Both the position numbers and the translations under genes were made by a program. This document shows positions 28,066 to 35,548 of a stretch of 36,204 nt of DNA, in pieces. The first letter of the stretch is position 1. Every line of letters starts with the position of its first letter. The stretch comes from a virus, in the IMG/VR virus record IMGVR_UViG_3300034691_000025, positions 1-36,204 of that record; one strand, written 5' to 3'. The notes under the pieces are model-generated. The model was given only the letters and a program-made list of their open reading frames with translations. It had not been told where the DNA came from and ran no database searches.

Positions 28066-28310
28066 TGTCCGACCTCATCCGGATATTTACCCAGCTCTTG
28101 GATGTAGTCGGGATCGCCGATCAACTCATCTTCGGCAAACGGGAGGATCTGCCCACCCGTCACCCGAACGAAATAGATGGTCCCGTCAGGCAGCGCGGAT
28201 ACCTGGATCGAAACCACTTCCCCGATCAGATCCGGTATAATCCGATCGCCGATGCGCTTTTGGTGGGTCGTGACGATCTCACGAAGCCCGAATTTGGTGG
28301 AAATCTTCAT
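28062..28310 (-). CDS. Small beta-rich protein downstream of the helicase
   Basis: 82 residues starting MKISTKFGLREIVTTHQKR. Alternating hydrophobic residues (GEVVSIQVSALPDGTIYFVR) suggest a small barrel like SH3/KOW domains, and the tail is acidic. The ATG overlaps the helicase stop (ATGA). It may be a helicase-associated protein, but only position suggests this. Confidence 0.6.
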   Translation of the reverse strand: MKISTKFGLREIVTTHQKRIGDRIIPDLIGEVVSIQVSALPDGTIYFVRVTGGQILPFAEDELIGDPDYIQELGKYPDEVGQ

Positions 28311-29671
28311 GCCTTCATCGACCATTCTGAGGTTATGGCTGGTCGAAAGCGAGTGTAGGGTCCTTCGAACATCAGCTCGGTTGACGACTCTGCAGCGGAT
28401 CGTCCCTTCTGCAGATCAAGGACTCGTTTCGATGCAACGATCTTCGCTCGCTGATATCCTTGATCCTCGAGCTGGGATCGCTGCGCGTTCTTCATGGTCA
28501 AGATCACCCGCTTTGCCTTTGCTAGCTCTTCCGGCTCCGGGTGGTAGACCATCAGGATCGCGTCTGCGTCCTGGCGAATCCCGCCTGATTCTTTGATGTG
28601 GTGGAGTTTTGGCGTTCCTTCCCGGCTCGCCTCGTTGTTGAGCTGGGTCAGCGCGTAGACAACACAATCTAGACGCCTCGCCATGAGTTTGCAGTGTCTT
28701 GAGATCGCCGCGACCTCTTGGGCCCGGTTCGATTCGCCGCCGCGCTTCTTCCCGCCTTCCAGGAGTTGCAGATAGTCGATGATGATTGCGCCAAGCCCTC
28801 CCTTTGAGATCTTGAGGGCCCGGGCGGATTGCTCGATTTCGTGGATCGTTTGCGCTTCTGTGATGTGGATCCCGCGCCGAACAATTTGCGACCGCGCCTC
28901 GGCTCGCTCGAATTCCTGCAGGTTGCGCCCGCGAATCCGGGAAATCTCGATCTTCTTGGTTGTCCAGGGGATGATGCGCTCGATGATTTCGTCCGTGCTC
29001 ATTTCGAGGGATGCGATCAGCACATTTTCGCGCTCTCCAACCGATGCCCCGATCCCTGCAGCCAAAGCCGTCTTCCCGCCCCCTGAGAAGCCCCCTAAGA
29101 CGACGTAGTTACCCGGGCGAGGGATGTAGAGCTTATCAAGCCAGTCGATCCCTGTAGGGCACTCCCTGGGCATTTCTGTGGATAAGACCGAATCAAGCCC
29201 TGAGGCGGCATGAGTGTACCCGGATCGCGACCCCCCGGCGCCGTTGACGATGCCTGTCACCCTGGCGACGATGTCCGTCACGAGGCTATCAGCGTCCTCC
29301 GCTTCCTCGGATTGTGCTAGAGCCCAGCGGCCCAGCTCGATGATCTGGCGGCGCTTGTAGCAGTCCAGGATTGCCGCGATCTCGCCTTCCACCCCGACCA
29401 TAGAGACAGAAGACTCCATTATCTCCATCAGGTAGGCATCGCCCCCGACATGCTGTAGCTTCTCCGACCCCTGCAGGGCCGCGACGACTGTTCCAAGGTT
29501 CGGCGAAGAGGTTTCGGCCAGCTTCGCGACCGTCTCGAAAATCAACTGGTGGCGAGCGGAATAGAAATGCTCGATCCGGATTTTCGCGATTATCTCGTGG
29601 GCCCGGTCGCCGAATCGAATCATTCGGCCAAGGATCGCGCCCTCGAGTTCGGTATTGTTGGGAATTTCCAT
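28307..29671 (-). CDS. Replicative DNA helicase, DnaB family
   Basis: 454 residues, full DnaB length. The N-terminal domain (TELEGAILGRMIRFG onward, residues 7-115) is the hexamer collar that contacts loader or primase. The RecA-like core has Walker A GGFSGGGKT (193-201), the SLEMS segment (221-225), Walker B AIIIDYLQLL (295-304), ALTQLNNEASR (340-350) and ESGGIRQDAD (361-370). It should unwind the phage fork 5' to 3'. It is coupled to the replication protein gene just upstream (TGATG), as in P22 gp18-gp12. Confidence 0.92.
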   Translation of the reverse strand: MEIPNNTELEGAILGRMIRFGDRAHEIIAKIRIEHFYSARHQLIFETVAKLAETSSPNLGTVVAALQGSEKLQHVGGDAYLMEIMESSVSMVGVEGEIAAILDCYKRRQIIELGRWALAQSEEAEDADSLVTDIVARVTGIVNGAGGSRSGYTHAASGLDSVLSTEMPRECPTGIDWLDKLYIPRPGNYVVLGGFSGGGKTALAAGIGASVGERENVLIASLEMSTDEIIERIIPWTTKKIEISRIRGRNLQEFERAEARSQIVRRGIHITEAQTIHEIEQSARALKISKGGLGAIIIDYLQLLEGGKKRGGESNRAQEVAAISRHCKLMARRLDCVVYALTQLNNEASREGTPKLHHIKESGGIRQDADAILMVYHPEPEELAKAKRVILTMKNAQRSQLEDQGYQRAKIVASKRVLDLQKGRSAAESSTELMFEGPYTRFRPAITSEWSMKA

Positions 29672-30360
29672 CAGAGCCGCGCCAGTGCTTCGGGGTCAAT
29701 TCCGTCGAGGGCGTGCGGATCAAAAACCGAAGGATCGCTAGGCGCCGCGTATCCCGTGACCGCGGCGGGATGTTCCCTGCCCCAATTCCCCGCGCATGTT
29801 GCCGCCCTGCGGCGCCACTCCATCGGACGGCCTTTGTCCATCCATTCGCGGCCCTGGTAGTAGGCGAACGCACTCACGACATCGCCGATTGGCCACCACG
29901 GGTAGTTTGCCGCGGCATTGGATTTCCAGGAGTCGATCGAAGGCGGGAGCGTAGCTTCCGCGCTCTGTTGCTTCTTTGTTCTCTTTGTCTTGTTTGTTTG
30001 TTGTGTTGTGTTATTGGTAGCATCCGGTAGCTCAAGTGGTATACGGGGGTATTCCGCGGTAGATCCGGTAGCATCCGGTAGCGTTTCTTCTACCGGATCT
30101 ACCGCGGTAGCTTTGGTATACCGCGCAGACACGCGCTCGGATTGCTTCCTGGAGAACGCTTCAGCATCCTGTAGAGACGCTTTCCCCGCGGAAAAGCCCA
30201 TCCTCCATTCCATCGGGCACCCGTCGGCCGCATCTTCTCCCGCGGCACCAGCGAGCCACCCGCGGAGCCATCGTCCCGCCTCATCGTCGCTCATCAAGGC
30301 GGTTGCGTTCCGGGCTTCGGCGTGATCCATCTTGGACCAGTAATTCCGCTTACCGCTCAT
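29671..30360 (-). CDS. Replication initiator/helicase-loader-like protein carrying the origin in its gene
   Basis: 229 residues. The ATG at 30360 overlaps the upstream stop (ATGA); an in-frame extension to 30384 is less likely. The N-terminal 80 residues are helical and basic (YWSKMDHAEARNATALMSDD, then LQDAEAFSRKQSERVSARY). A low-complexity linker at residues 83-140 has repeated LPDAT and many T, K and Q. The C-terminal domain (residues 141-200) is tryptophan-rich (WKSNAAANYPWWPIGDVVSA). The order (DNA-binding part, linker whose DNA is repetitive, helicase-binding part) and the helicase gene next door resemble lambda O or P22 gp18. No sequence-level family match is claimed. Confidence 0.6.
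   Translation of the reverse strand: MSGKRNYWSKMDHAEARNATALMSDDEAGRWLRGWLAGAAGEDAADGCPMEWRMGFSAGKASLQDAEAFSRKQSERVSARYTKATAVDPVEETLPDATGSTAEYPRIPLELPDATNNTTQQTNKTKRTKKQQSAEATLPPSIDSWKSNAAANYPWWPIGDVVSAFAYYQGREWMDKGRPMEWRRRAATCAGNWGREHPAAVTGYAAPSDPSVFDPHALDGIDPEALARL
29971..30122. other. Candidate replication origin: iterons, large inverted repeat and T-rich run
   Basis: ATCCGGTAG occurs at 30022-30030, 30063-30071 and 30073-30081 and inverted at 30090-30098. CCGCGGTAGATCCGGTAG (30054-30071) is repeated as a perfect 18-bp inverted copy at 30090-30107. GGTATAC at 30038 and GGTATACC at 30115-30122 flank this as a further inverted pair, and CTACCGCGGTAG (30099-30110) is a palindrome. Adjacent, 29971-30015 is almost only T, C and G with many T runs and no A before 30013. 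Iterons next to a strand-biased easily melted stretch inside an initiator gene is the lambda ori plan. Confidence 0.6.
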
Positions 30361-30569
30361 GGGTGAACCTTGGATTTCCGCCATTCTAGGTTCGACAGGT
30401 AGGCGTTAAACCCGAAGATGTTCCCCTTCTCCTGTCCGGGGTTCTTTTTCCCCGCAAGGCCGTGGACGAGTCCATGTAGGAACTTCAATGCATCGTCGCC
30501 GTCCGTGATAAGCGATACCTCTAGAGCGAGGTCTGGCACGCTTACGGGGACATATCGAGGTCGTGTCAT
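30357..30569 (-). CDS. Small protein at the head of the replication genes
   Basis: 70 residues starting MTRPRYVPVSVPDLALEVSL. The middle (DDALKFLHGLVHGLAGKKN) is helical. The end NLEWRKSKVHP overlaps the replication protein start. An upstream extension is open but runs through the structured leader. The ribosome binding site is weak (AAAAGA), so its translation may depend on the leader RNA. Function unknown. Confidence 0.6.
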   Translation of the reverse strand: MTRPRYVPVSVPDLALEVSLITDGDDALKFLHGLVHGLAGKKNPGQEKGNIFGFNAYLSNLEWRKSKVHP

Positions 30570-30587
30570 GTTGGTCTTTTTTGAATA

Positions 30588-30695
30588 GCTTGCGCTCGAT
30601 CCTGGTAGAACCCAAGTCGCTGTTTCCAGCGAGCAAGTGACAGGAGAGCGCAAGCCGTTTCCGTACTCTTTACCGACGGGGTTCTACTTCCGTCG
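30588..30695 (-). ncRNA. Structured 5' leader RNA candidate
   Basis: Read leftward, four exact pairings fit one compact fold: CGACGG/CCGTCG (30695-30690 with 30679-30674), GCTTGCGCTC/GAGCGCAAGC (30655-30646 with 30597-30588), TCGCTG-GAAA-CAGCGA (30632-30617, a GNRA tetraloop on this strand) and GTAGAACCC/GGGTTCTAC (30687-30679 with 30613-30605). The last joins the first hairpin loop to the interior of the second helix, a pseudoknot, with one base shared with the first stem. The fold ends 19 bases before the first ATG and starts just after a promoter. Confidence 0.6.
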
Positions 30696-30706
30696 ACTAT
30701 TCCCTC

Positions 30707-30735
30707 AATCTACTCGATCGCGCCTCGGAATGCAA
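30707..30735 (-). promoter_or_regulatory. Leftward promoter TTGCAT-17-TAGATT for replication genes
   Basis: On the minus strand TTGCAT (30735-30730) is 17 bases from TAGATT (30712-30707). The predicted start is near 30700, at the 5' edge of the structured leader. It may act within the long early operon as an internal promoter. Confidence 0.6.
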
Positions 30736-30741
30736 GCGGGA

Positions 30742-30921
30742 TCAACATCCTCGCGCCTTCCGATCCGCGTCGGTCCCTGCAATGAACTCCGCGACCATGA
30801 TCGCTCGCATCTCCCGGCGCATGTCCTCAAGCGTCTTGTGCATCGTGCAATACTTCAGCGCGGATCCACTCGCACGGAGGATGCGGTCCAGGTTGGCGTC
30901 AATCCGTTCTTCGGCGCTCAT
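30742..30921 (-). CDS. Small conserved-looking phage protein
   Basis: 59 residues starting MSAEERIDANLDRILRASGS. The sequence continues ALKYCTMHKTLEDMRREMRA and ends with FIAGTDADRKARGC. This highly helical small protein resembles a type frequent in phage early regions; no function is known to me. The ATG overlaps the upstream stop (ATGA). It is the last gene before the internal promoter and leader. Confidence 0.65.
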   Translation of the reverse strand: MSAEERIDANLDRILRASGSALKYCTMHKTLEDMRREMRAIMVAEFIAGTDADRKARGC

Positions 30922-31073
30922 ACCGCCATCACCCCGTTCACCGCCGCGCCCGCCATGAGCACGACGGCATCGCGCCACTCGCCACGGTAGGCGGAGATCA
31001 GTGCCGCCGCGAAGAGCTGGGCGGCGACGTTGGCGCAGAGGATGGCTTTCCAGGGGAGGGAGGGGAGGGTCAT
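30918..31073 (-). CDS. 51-residue membrane protein
   Basis: Starts MTLPSLPWKAILCANVAAQL. There are two short hydrophobic segments (about residues 10-24 and 35-50, the latter AVVLMAGAAVNGVMAV) joined by a polar turn YRGEWRD, so it is probably a hairpin in the inner membrane. Coupled at both ends by ATGA. Function unknown. Confidence 0.6.
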   Translation of the reverse strand: MTLPSLPWKAILCANVAAQLFAAALISAYRGEWRDAVVLMAGAAVNGVMAV

Positions 31074-31252
31074 GGGGAGGCTTTTCGTAATTCGCGGACT
31101 TTCAATCCGTCGAAGCGCGGCATCTTTGCGCAGGTCTCGCACAGATGCCAATTAAACGGGCGCACACCTACCGACAAAGTCGCCTCGGCATGCGAGTCGC
31201 GCCCTGCCAAAGCTGGAACATCGCCATCTGGGTCCCACTCGCATCCAGTCAT
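31070..31252 (-). CDS. 60-residue protein with CxxC motif
   Basis: Starts MTGCEWDPDGDVPALAGRDS. Metal-binding candidates are the early cysteine and HLCETCAKM (about residues 36-44), with a basic C-terminus (LKVRELRKASP). The start is fixed by ATGA overlap with the 26-residue membrane gene upstream. Possibly a small zinc protein; function unknown. Confidence 0.6.
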   Translation of the reverse strand: MTGCEWDPDGDVPALAGRDSHAEATLSVGVRPFNWHLCETCAKMPRFDGLKVRELRKASP

Positions 31253-31329
31253 AGGAATACCGCCAGAAACAGAATGATGAAAAACAACAGAGTTTTGAAT
31301 ATCTCCCAAGCGACTTCAGGCCACGTCAT
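31249..31329 (-). CDS. 26-residue membrane microprotein
   Basis: Reads MTWPEVAWEIFKTLLFFIIL followed by FLAVFL and stop. Almost the whole C-terminal half is one transmembrane helix ending at the C-terminus. The start overlaps the upstream stop and its stop overlaps the downstream start, both as ATGA. Such exact double coupling is unlikely by chance. It could be a membrane toxin-like, exclusion or regulatory peptide. Confidence 0.55.
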   Translation of the reverse strand: MTWPEVAWEIFKTLLFFIILFLAVFL

Positions 31330-31766
31330 GATTTTCTCGCCGCCTCCCACGGGCGCAACGGAATCAAAAACCCAAACGATTCAATGTCATCTTCATGGAT
31401 CCCGTCTTGCGATGGGTGGGGATCCCATTCGAGTTCGCCATCCATTCCAACGCACGCATGATGCACCTTGTGATCCCGAGGGCTGCGGCCAGCGAGTTCA
31501 TGCCATAACCCTTTGATGCCAATGCCTTTAATGTGACGCCTGTTCATGCGGATTCCGCAGACAAAAGCGAGCCCAAATTGGGATAGCCACTCGTTCACCG
31601 GAGCCTCCCAGTTCTCTCCAGGGAAATCACGCGGATCGCTGAAGTGTGGTACATCCTCAATCGGTATCCGTAGGAGCCCCGCAAGGACAGCGGAAAGGCA
31701 GTTTCCGTGCGTCTCCGGAGGATTGTGCAAAATGCTTTGCTCGACCCGTGGGCACTCTCGATTCAT
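31326..31766 (-). CDS. Phage protein with cysteine-peptidase-like motifs
   Basis: 146 residues. The segment THGNCLSAVLAGLLRIPIED (from about residue 19) has the Asn-Cys helix seen in papain/C39-like folds. A later HHACVG with ELEWDPHPSQDG has a candidate histidine and aspartate. A related arrangement is found in small phage proteins of unknown role. Peptidase, transglutaminase-like or inactive binding function are all possible. C22 plus H in the HHACVG strand are the residues to test. Coupled at both ends by ATGA. Confidence 0.6.
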   Translation of the reverse strand: MNRECPRVEQSILHNPPETHGNCLSAVLAGLLRIPIEDVPHFSDPRDFPGENWEAPVNEWLSQFGLAFVCGIRMNRRHIKGIGIKGLWHELAGRSPRDHKVHHACVGMDGELEWDPHPSQDGIHEDDIESFGFLIPLRPWEAARKS

Positions 31767-32098: not shown

Positions 32099-32466
32099 TT
32101 TTTTCTCGCTTTCTTCAGTTTCGGGGGGTAGACCGTCACAGGATTTCCCTGCGCGGCCATGTGCTTTGCAGACCTGCGGAACATCGGCGTTTCGACGCCT
32201 TTGACATCCTCGATCACGACTTCGTCGCCTCGGAGGTAGACAAAATCGGCGATGTACTTGCCGATCACGATCCCGTTGACTTTGAGCGGGAAAACCACTT
32301 GGCGCTGTAGCTCAGAAATGATCCCGCCCCAATTCTGCAACCTCAAAACATCCCAGCGCCGCGCCTCCGCTGTCGATGCGTGACGGATTCCGTCGGACGT
32401 GGTCTTCGGGATGGCGCCGTACTTGTGGCGGCTGCGAGCGGAGGGGGAGGGAATCGAACCCATCAT
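32095..32466 (-). CDS. DUF1064-type nuclease
   Basis: 123 residues. The family is a compact PD-(D/E)XK-like nuclease often placed in phage replication/recombination regions and related in fold to T7 endonuclease I and Holliday-junction resolvases. Visible motifs are RHKYGAIPKTTSDGIRHAST, AEARRWDVL with E34, YIADFVYL (D74) and VVIEDVKG (E86, D87, K89). Two start codons in tandem (32466 and 32463) overlap the upstream stop. The first nine residues (MMGSIPSPS) are encoded inside the tRNA-like element and are atypical for the family. Confidence 0.75.
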   Translation of the reverse strand: MMGSIPSPSARSRHKYGAIPKTTSDGIRHASTAEARRWDVLRLQNWGGIISELQRQVVFPLKVNGIVIGKYIADFVYLRGDEVVIEDVKGVETPMFRRSAKHMAAQGNPVTVYPPKLKKARKK

Positions 32467-34433: not shown

Positions 34434-34607
34434 TTGAAGAACGAAGAAGAGAAGATCAAGACTCGCGCCAATATCGGGGCGAACGATGCGGACTGGGCGA
34501 CCATCCGACAGGCGGTCGTGCTCACCGGGAAAGAGCAGTCGATTTTCCTGCGGGAAGCGGCGATCCAGAAGGCTCGCAGCGTGCTTGCGCGGAAGGGGGT
34601 GAAGTGA
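34434..34607 (+). CDS. Ribbon-helix-helix-like small protein
   Basis: 57 residues from a TTG, supported by AAGGAGG ending four bases upstream. The sequence (TRANIGANDADWATIRQAVV, then EQSIFLREAAIQKARSVLAR) matches the strand-helix-helix pattern of RHH/DUF1778-like proteins such as antitoxins and Arc-type repressors. No toxin gene of GNAT type follows, so a stand-alone regulator of the early promoters is more likely. The stop overlaps the next ATG (TGATG). Confidence 0.6.
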   Translation: MKNEEEKIKTRANIGANDADWATIRQAVVLTGKEQSIFLREAAIQKARSVLARKGVK

Positions 34608-35548
34608 TGGACATCATGCCGACCGAACCGACCGCCATGGCCGTCGTTGAAACCTCAAGCTCCGCCCTTGCCGCCCAAGTCAAGGCGACCGTCGAGGCTC
34701 GCTACACCGTGGCGATCGCCCGGCCCCGCGATCTCGACATGGTCCGCGAGCGGCTTATCAAGGACGCTCGCCGCCCTGGATTTGCTGATGTCGCGATCTA
34801 CCAAAAGCCGATCGGGAAGGATGAAACGAAATGGCCCACCGGCCCGTCGATCCGTTTCGCCGAAGCAGCCATCCGCGCAATGGGAAATTGCATCGTGGAG
34901 GCGGTGACGGTTTTTGACGACAAGGAGCGTCGAATCGTCCGCGTGTCCGCCACCGACCTGGAATCCAATACGACGCTCCCGATCGACGTACTGGTCAACA
35001 AGACTGTCGAGCGGTCCTACCTCAAGGATGGCGAAAAAGCCCTCTCGACGCGCCTCAATTCCTACGGGAAACCGGTTCACACGGTCATTGCATCCGACGA
35101 CGACGTGCTGAACAAGGTCAACGCGATGGTGTCTAAGGCCTACCGTACCGCCGCCCTCCGCCTTGTCCCCGGCGACATCGTGGAGGAGGTGATGGACGTT
35201 TGCTGGGAGACGCGCCGCAACCAGGATGCGCAAGACCCAGAGACAGCCAAAAAGAAGCTGTTCGACGCGTTCGGACGGCAAGGCGTGACCGTGGAGCAAC
35301 TCAAGGCGTTCCTGGGCCACGAGGCCAAGCTCTTGACGGCGAAGGAGCACGAGACGCTTCGAGGCGTGTTCAACGCCTTGAAGGAGGGGGAAACGACCTG
35401 GCGGGAGGTGATGGACGCCCGCGAGAAGGGGCCGAACGGTGAGCCGCCCACACCACCACCCGAAACGCCCGAACAGAAGAAGGCCCGCGAACTCGCCGCC
35501 AAGCGCAAGGAAGCTTCGCCCGCTGGGCTCGAGGGGATGGCATCATGA
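34607..35548 (+). CDS. Candidate recombination (single-strand annealing-type) protein
   Basis: 313 residues. The core TKWPTGPSIRFAEAAIRAMGN (about residues 77-96, quoted in part), followed by a strand-rich region (RRIVRVSATDLESNTTLPID) and NKVNAMVSKAYRTAALRLVP (from about 166), matches a phage family usually left unnamed and placed beside PD-(D/E)XK exonucleases. The C-terminus is a P/E/K-rich tail. With a DEDDh exonuclease and a PD-(D/E)XK exonuclease directly downstream in coupled order, an annealing or recombination-mediator role is the best inference. I cannot show a RecT, Erf or Rad52 fold from sequence alone. Confidence 0.55.
   Translation: MDIMPTEPTAMAVVETSSSALAAQVKATVEARYTVAIARPRDLDMVRERLIKDARRPGFADVAIYQKPIGKDETKWPTGPSIRFAEAAIRAMGNCIVEAVTVFDDKERRIVRVSATDLESNTTLPIDVLVNKTVERSYLKDGEKALSTRLNSYGKPVHTVIASDDDVLNKVNAMVSKAYRTAALRLVPGDIVEEVMDVCWETRRNQDAQDPETAKKKLFDAFGRQGVTVEQLKAFLGHEAKLLTAKEHETLRGVFNALKEGETTWREVMDAREKGPNGEPPTPPPETPEQKKARELAAKRKEASPAGLEGMAS

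Follow-up and report, generated by a model that had tools for sequence, protein, structure and literature searches.

A candidate pseudoknotted leader RNA ahead of the replication genes of an uncultured P22-like phage

In a phage operon whose genes mostly overlap end to start, what is the role of a long non-coding gap filled with self-complementary sequence? The question is raised by an uncultured, P22-like phage, a virus of 36.2 kb and 60% GC (IMG/VR record IMGVR_UViG_3300034691_000025; the window is the whole stretch analyzed, 36,204 nt). Its head genes (portal, coat, head closure, and terminase) are P22-like, with portal identity to the nearest named phages of only ~36 to 40%. Genes for an exonuclease and an exonuclease VIII-like protein lie at the two ends of the record (positions 1 and 36204); in a related record, L003, these genes are neighbors, so that circular permutation of the genome probably accounts for their place here.

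The gap, at positions 30570 to 30741, is with 172 nt the largest in the leftward operon, and the element described here fills it. Codon usage and stops mark the region as non-coding in all six frames. The remaining junctions are mostly overlaps of 1 to 4 nt (overlapping start/stop pairs at 32466/32463, 32098/32095, 31766/31763, 31073/31070, 30921/30918, 28310/28307, 28065/28062, and 27895/27892), and the other gaps measure ~67 and ~73 nt, values that vary with the start codons chosen. Since most junctions overlap, a gap of this size means that de novo initiation would be needed exactly at the element, and since the flanking genes run in the same direction, we take the minus strand to be the sense strand.

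An initial annotation had placed the element in front of replication genes, and this is borne out. The first cistron downstream is an open reading frame (ORF) of 70 amino acids (30357 to 30569, minus strand), which overlaps a 237-amino-acid ORF (29671 to 30384, minus strand), which in turn overlaps the gene of a DnaB-type replicative helicase (28307 to 29671, minus strand). Neither of the first two has a family match, and AlphaFold models of their proteins were too poor for use (pLDDT of 51 and 38, respectively); the 237-amino-acid ORF is called a putative initiator gene solely because of its place and of the iteron cluster inside it. This origin-like cluster (30016 to 30174, read on the plus strand) comprises four exact copies of ATCCGGTAG and a fifth with one mismatch, together with an 18-bp perfect inverted repeat (30054 to 30071/30090 to 30107), and resembles the arrangement in lambda O, which has an internal origin. 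A tract with a T/G-rich strand (29990 to 30015) adjoins the cluster, and the minus-strand RNA fold of 29990 to 30160 has a z score of -6.9.

Read 5′ to 3′ on the minus strand, the element consists of O, hairpin A (with K in its loop), a linker, B, C, an 8-nt segment, hairpin D, a 3-nt spacer, K′, C′, a 2-nt bulge, B′, and O′. Four perfect Watson-Crick pairs of 6, 10, 6, and 9 bp (A, B, D, and K) had been reported within about 108 nt; all are present, spanning the 108 nt from 30588 to 30695, with the correction that A and K share base 30679, so that only 5 plus 9 or 6 plus 8 bp of the two can form together. Helices C and O, of 5 bp each, are additions compatible with the same fold, and the perfect helices of at least 5 bp, counted without overlap, amount to 40 Watson-Crick pairs in 123 nt.

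In detail, and always on the minus strand, the outer closing helix O pairs GAATA (30698 to 30702) with TATTC (30583 to 30587), the latter flush with B′. Hairpin A (30674 to 30695) is closed by CGACG/CGTCG, or by 6 bp (CGACGG/CCGTCG) if K is absent, and its loop contains K, GTAGAACCC (30679 to 30687), which can form 9 bp with K′, GGGTTCTAC (30605 to 30613). Neither the K 9-mer nor its complement has a further copy anywhere in the genome. The 18-nt linker from hairpin A to helix B, GTAAAGAGTACGGAAACG (30656 to 30673), is largely unpaired. Helix B, of 10 bp, joins GCTTGCGCTC (30646 to 30655) to GAGCGCAAGC (B′, 30588 to 30597), and flush with it lies helix C, TCCTG (30641 to 30645) with CAGGA (C′, 30600 to 30604), the 2-nt bulge (TC) separating C′ from B′. 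Hairpin D (30617 to 30632) pairs TCGCTG with CAGCGA in 6 bp around a GAAA loop (30623 to 30626) that exists, as reported earlier, on the minus strand only, the plus strand reading TTTC. Several junctions are flush: K runs into A′ without spacer, K′ into C′, and B′ into O′, and no base separates B from C on the 5′ strand. Hairpin A and K together are laid out like a standard H-type pseudoknot, with a 5-bp stem, a 3-nt loop (GAA), and a 9-bp stem that adjoins the first without a spacer. As the A-K and C-B stacks are of similar length (14 and 15 bp), a side-by-side arrangement that lets O close would be sterically plausible.

The self-complementarity is far beyond chance for this sequence. Not one of 4000 dinucleotide shuffles of the 123-nt core reached 40 pairs, which upholds the earlier view that such density is hard to explain by chance, and disjoint helices of 10 and 9 bp occurred in 0 of 3000 shuffles. 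Among 3609 genome windows of 123 nt, the element's 40 bp are the tied top value; the sole other window with 40 bp of perfect helices, 28341 to 28463, falls in the 3′-terminal part of the DnaB gene. The element is thus real, non-random, and densely structured, and it occupies a sensible control point.

Folding energies were also compared with those of shuffled sequence, a check that the initial annotation had proposed. The nested folding energy is only moderately unusual, with z scores of -2.8 to -3.2 on the minus strand and -3.8 on the plus strand, and gives no preference for the minus strand. The plus strand folds equally well because all pairs are Watson-Crick, and the single-stranded DNA (ssDNA) fold, with a z score of -4.0, is as unusual as the RNA fold. 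A frame with K unpaired (-39.4 kcal/mol) plus the K duplex (-13.6) compares with a best nested fold of -47.4, a gain from the pseudoknot of ~5.6 kcal/mol from which the pseudoknot penalty is yet to be subtracted. By nearest-neighbor values the pseudoknot is therefore energetically marginal, and two alternative states are as plausible as a fixed fold.

At the 3′ end, the fold stops 13 nt upstream of the AUG of the 70-amino-acid ORF, in an open A-rich tract, AAAAAAGACCAAC (30570 to 30582, minus strand). Most of its bases are unpaired with a probability of 0.9 to 1.0, and ACC at 30573 to 30575 with ~0.5. A weak ribosome binding site had been proposed here; the open tract is present, but a clear Shine-Dalgarno sequence before the AUG is absent. 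The ribosome-entry tract is not sequestered by the fold, and no expression platform is visible. At the 5′ end, the fold was said to begin at a predicted transcript start, which the present analysis does not confirm: a consensus scan found no sigma-70 promoter and no promoter-like site on either strand; a weak reading, TTGCAT-17-TAGATT (30707 to 30735, minus strand), has 7/12 matches and falls below the scan threshold. No intrinsic terminator was found in 30000 to 31400.

The element was held to match no recognized riboswitch class, and the family searches agree. No Rfam 15 covariance model matched the window at the gathering threshold, and none matched the element at E values up to 10, whether of riboswitches, ribozymes, or phage RNAs; the single match at that level, a chance one of 11.7 bits, lies outside the element on the opposite strand. 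No relative of the element was found by blastn against phages and plasmids, nor by way of DnaB, the putative initiator, or the 70-amino-acid ORF, in searched sets from which records very near the window are possibly missing. Covariance model R1, built from one sequence, gave no true match on viral loci or related records, none in EBPR podovirus 1, and none in 396 genomes from the bacterial phylum to which the host of a distant relative, a Bryobacterales MAG, belongs. Its 15.7-bit match in viral record L019 was rejected, as it lies within coding sequence. Named P22-like phages other than EBPR podovirus 1 were scanned with a topology descriptor (defined below) only.

Pattern searches led no further. 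In viral contigs, the K...K′ pattern gave eight matches, all of them unrelated hairpins or other sequence without the element's fold, and the GACTTGGGTTCTACCAGG pattern gave none. None of 19 matches to the linker pattern has the fold, and the strongest (in L035 and L042), like that in L033, are a Gly-Lys-Glu-Tyr-Gly-Asn codon run. A near-identical long hairpin, CACTGTAGAACCCGG...CCGGGTTCTACAGTG, occurs in L019 (7729 to 7802) and L023 (4065 to 4138) and is unrelated to the element.

A phrog_3657 protein (34604 to 35548) has 81%-identical relatives in records L002 and L003, and terminase relatives share 54% identity. The records of these phrog_3657 and terminase relatives have no match to the element, and those compared with the putative initiator gene, L002 and L003 included, have none to that gene either; relative to L002 and L003, the replication module appears to have been exchanged. 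Other named P22-like phages have different replication genes.

Our best explanation, to which we assign a probability of about 45%, is that the element works in cis as a structured leader of the leftward early mRNA. Loop segment K of hairpin A would pair with K′ inside the second, long hairpin, and helix O would close the whole into a compact pseudoknotted module that leaves the A-rich ribosome-entry tract open before the start codon. Initiation at the AUG of the 70-amino-acid ORF would then be the control point of the replication block, since that ORF and the genes after it, among them the putative initiator and DnaB, form a chain of end-to-start overlaps that a single AUG would control. The ribosome-entry site stays exposed in this fold, so regulation would depend on protein binding or on refolding. 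Most likely, the fold would be recognized by a protein that either blocks or allows initiation, probably one encoded by the replication block itself; alternatively, it may switch between K-paired and K-unpaired states. A leader RNA is favored by the excess of mutually compatible helices, the flush junctions, and the H-type layout, and also by the non-coding gap, the co-directional genes, the open tract, and an order of parts like that at T4 gene 32. Counted against it are the failure of the searches to find a homologue and hence covariation, the equally good fold of the plus strand, which makes DNA-level roles possible, the marginal pseudoknot energy, the failure to find a promoter or terminator, and the lack of a visible expression platform. 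The leader-RNA interpretation of the initial annotation is thus partly supported. A bolder version, that this is a previously undescribed class of pseudoknotted leader which acts as a switch on the replication block through alternative states of hairpin A/K and a single start codon, we regard as unlikely.

The strongest rival is that the element acts as DNA, as an ssDNA initiation or priming site or an accessory origin structure with hairpins on one strand, which would form when the putative origin ~400 to 700 bp away unwinds. Three-hairpin G4-type primase sites and plasmid G sites are comparable structures; at G4-type sites, primase recognizes hairpins on SSB-coated ssDNA near an origin. The strand-symmetric Watson-Crick pairing and the ssDNA z score speak for such a role, and the iteron cluster with its inverted repeat (30016 to 30174) and the DnaB gene are close by. 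Theta-type phage origins, however, usually have no need of such a site, the origin assignment is itself deduced from repeats, and a DNA function leaves both the position next to a start codon and the gap in the operon unexplained. We consider a DNA role doubtful.

It is improbable, in our judgment, that chance produced the arrangement or that unrelated pieces, such as palindromic operator sites at A and D, mimic one fold. Hairpins A (22 bp, a partial palindrome) and D (16 bp) are indeed operator-sized, and another genome window (about 28341) also reaches 40 bp. An oriented topology descriptor, in which a hairpin of at least 5 bp has a loop segment of at least 9 nt pairing inside a helix of at least 10 bp, matched at the observed lengths 36 times in 10,837 shuffled genomes, 4 times with hairpin D required, and with looser lengths ~0.18 times per genome by chance, figures that overstate significance because the descriptor is post hoc, chosen with the sequence already seen. 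Against coincidence stand these few matches and the failure of all 4000 shuffles, and spacings of 48 nt between the 10-bp arms and of 65 nt between the strands of the 9-bp pair are not usual for operators. The region, moreover, is the non-coding gap of a tightly packed operon.

There is a slim chance that the element is a put-like or nut-like RNA, which modifies RNA polymerase or recruits antitermination factors so that the leftward transcript passes terminators ahead of the replication genes. Its early-operon position parallels that of lambda nutR, between cro and cII and upstream of O, and a boxA-like CGCTCT precedes the GAAA-loop hairpin D by 12 nt. This string, however, is buried in the 10-bp helix B, so that the accessible boxA which precedes the boxB hairpin in a lambdoid nut site is lacking, and the genome has no excess of boxA-like strings (63 found versus 79 expected). 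The put sites of phage HK022 supply early transcripts with a leader RNA of two stems (PMC9378689), but the element does not closely follow a promoter, as many genes separate it from the divergent promoter region upstream, and no terminator was found nearby for a modified polymerase to pass.

The odds are similarly long for a free-standing small RNA, or for the target of a plus-strand antisense RNA that competes with K pairing, as at ColIb-P9 repZ. A hairpin loop can pair with a distal strand in front of a small ORF overlapping the putative initiator gene, and O would close the ends of the molecule; yet neither strand shows a promoter-like site, the fold is not followed by a terminator, and the small ORF comes after both pairing strands, unlike in the plasmid. 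That the element is a self-cleaving ribozyme, whether new in class or divergent, is very unlikely, for despite a compact pseudoknotted size of ~110 to 125 nt, the occurrence of K, B/C, and D in the order of hepatitis delta virus (HDV) P1, P2, and P3, and a P1-loop pseudoknot resembling that of pistol (PMC6154101), no Rfam family matches and C′ directly follows K′, which leaves no room for an HDV P4/J4-2 segment with the catalytic C.

On the features compared, the element belongs neither with put and nut RNAs nor with HDV-type ribozymes. HDV-like/theta and pistol ribozymes are compact pseudoknotted RNAs in or near phages, with a strand order similar to that of the element. Pistol differs from the element in the side of the junction on which the partner strand is placed. 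The K-B/C-D-K′-C′ order matches the HDV-like P1-P2-P3-P1′-J4/2-P2′ in part, but J4/2, whose first base is the catalytic C of HDV (PMC10879173), is missing between K′ and C′. The putL and putR sites of HK022 are likewise structured RNAs in a phage early transcript, but they are ~70 nt long with two stems and no described pseudoknot and lie near early promoters; the element has no promoter-like site, differs in length and helices, and is set apart from them by this description.

For the proposed leader, the closest functional analogues are the pseudoknots of ColIb-P9 repZ (references within PMC10724649) and of T4 gene 32. In IncI-complex (ColIb-P9) repZ, as predicted for the element, a hairpin loop pairs with a distant strand, and the small ORF that follows overlaps an initiator gene; repZ has an antisense RNA, whereas for the phage element no antisense RNA or promoter was found. 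In ColIb-P9, moreover, the two pairing strands flank the small ORF. The gene 32 operators of T4, T2, and RB69, through which an ssDNA-binding protein exerts autogenous control, resemble the proposed leader in that a replication gene is preceded by a pseudoknot and then by an A-rich tract, unstructured and overlapping the ribosome entry; in T4, the order is pseudoknot, unstructured A+U-rich tract, and start codon of the replication gene (PMC3014915). The likeness is one of layout, with no sequence relation seen: the gene 32 structure is a short two-stem pseudoknot ~67 nt upstream of its AUG, while the phage element has ~120 nt and six helices and ends 13 nt from its AUG. If the element does act as such a leader, it would be a second, unrelated, and more elaborate case, preceding a DnaB-type replication block, and would show that control of replication dose at the mRNA leader is not confined to the T4 group of phages.
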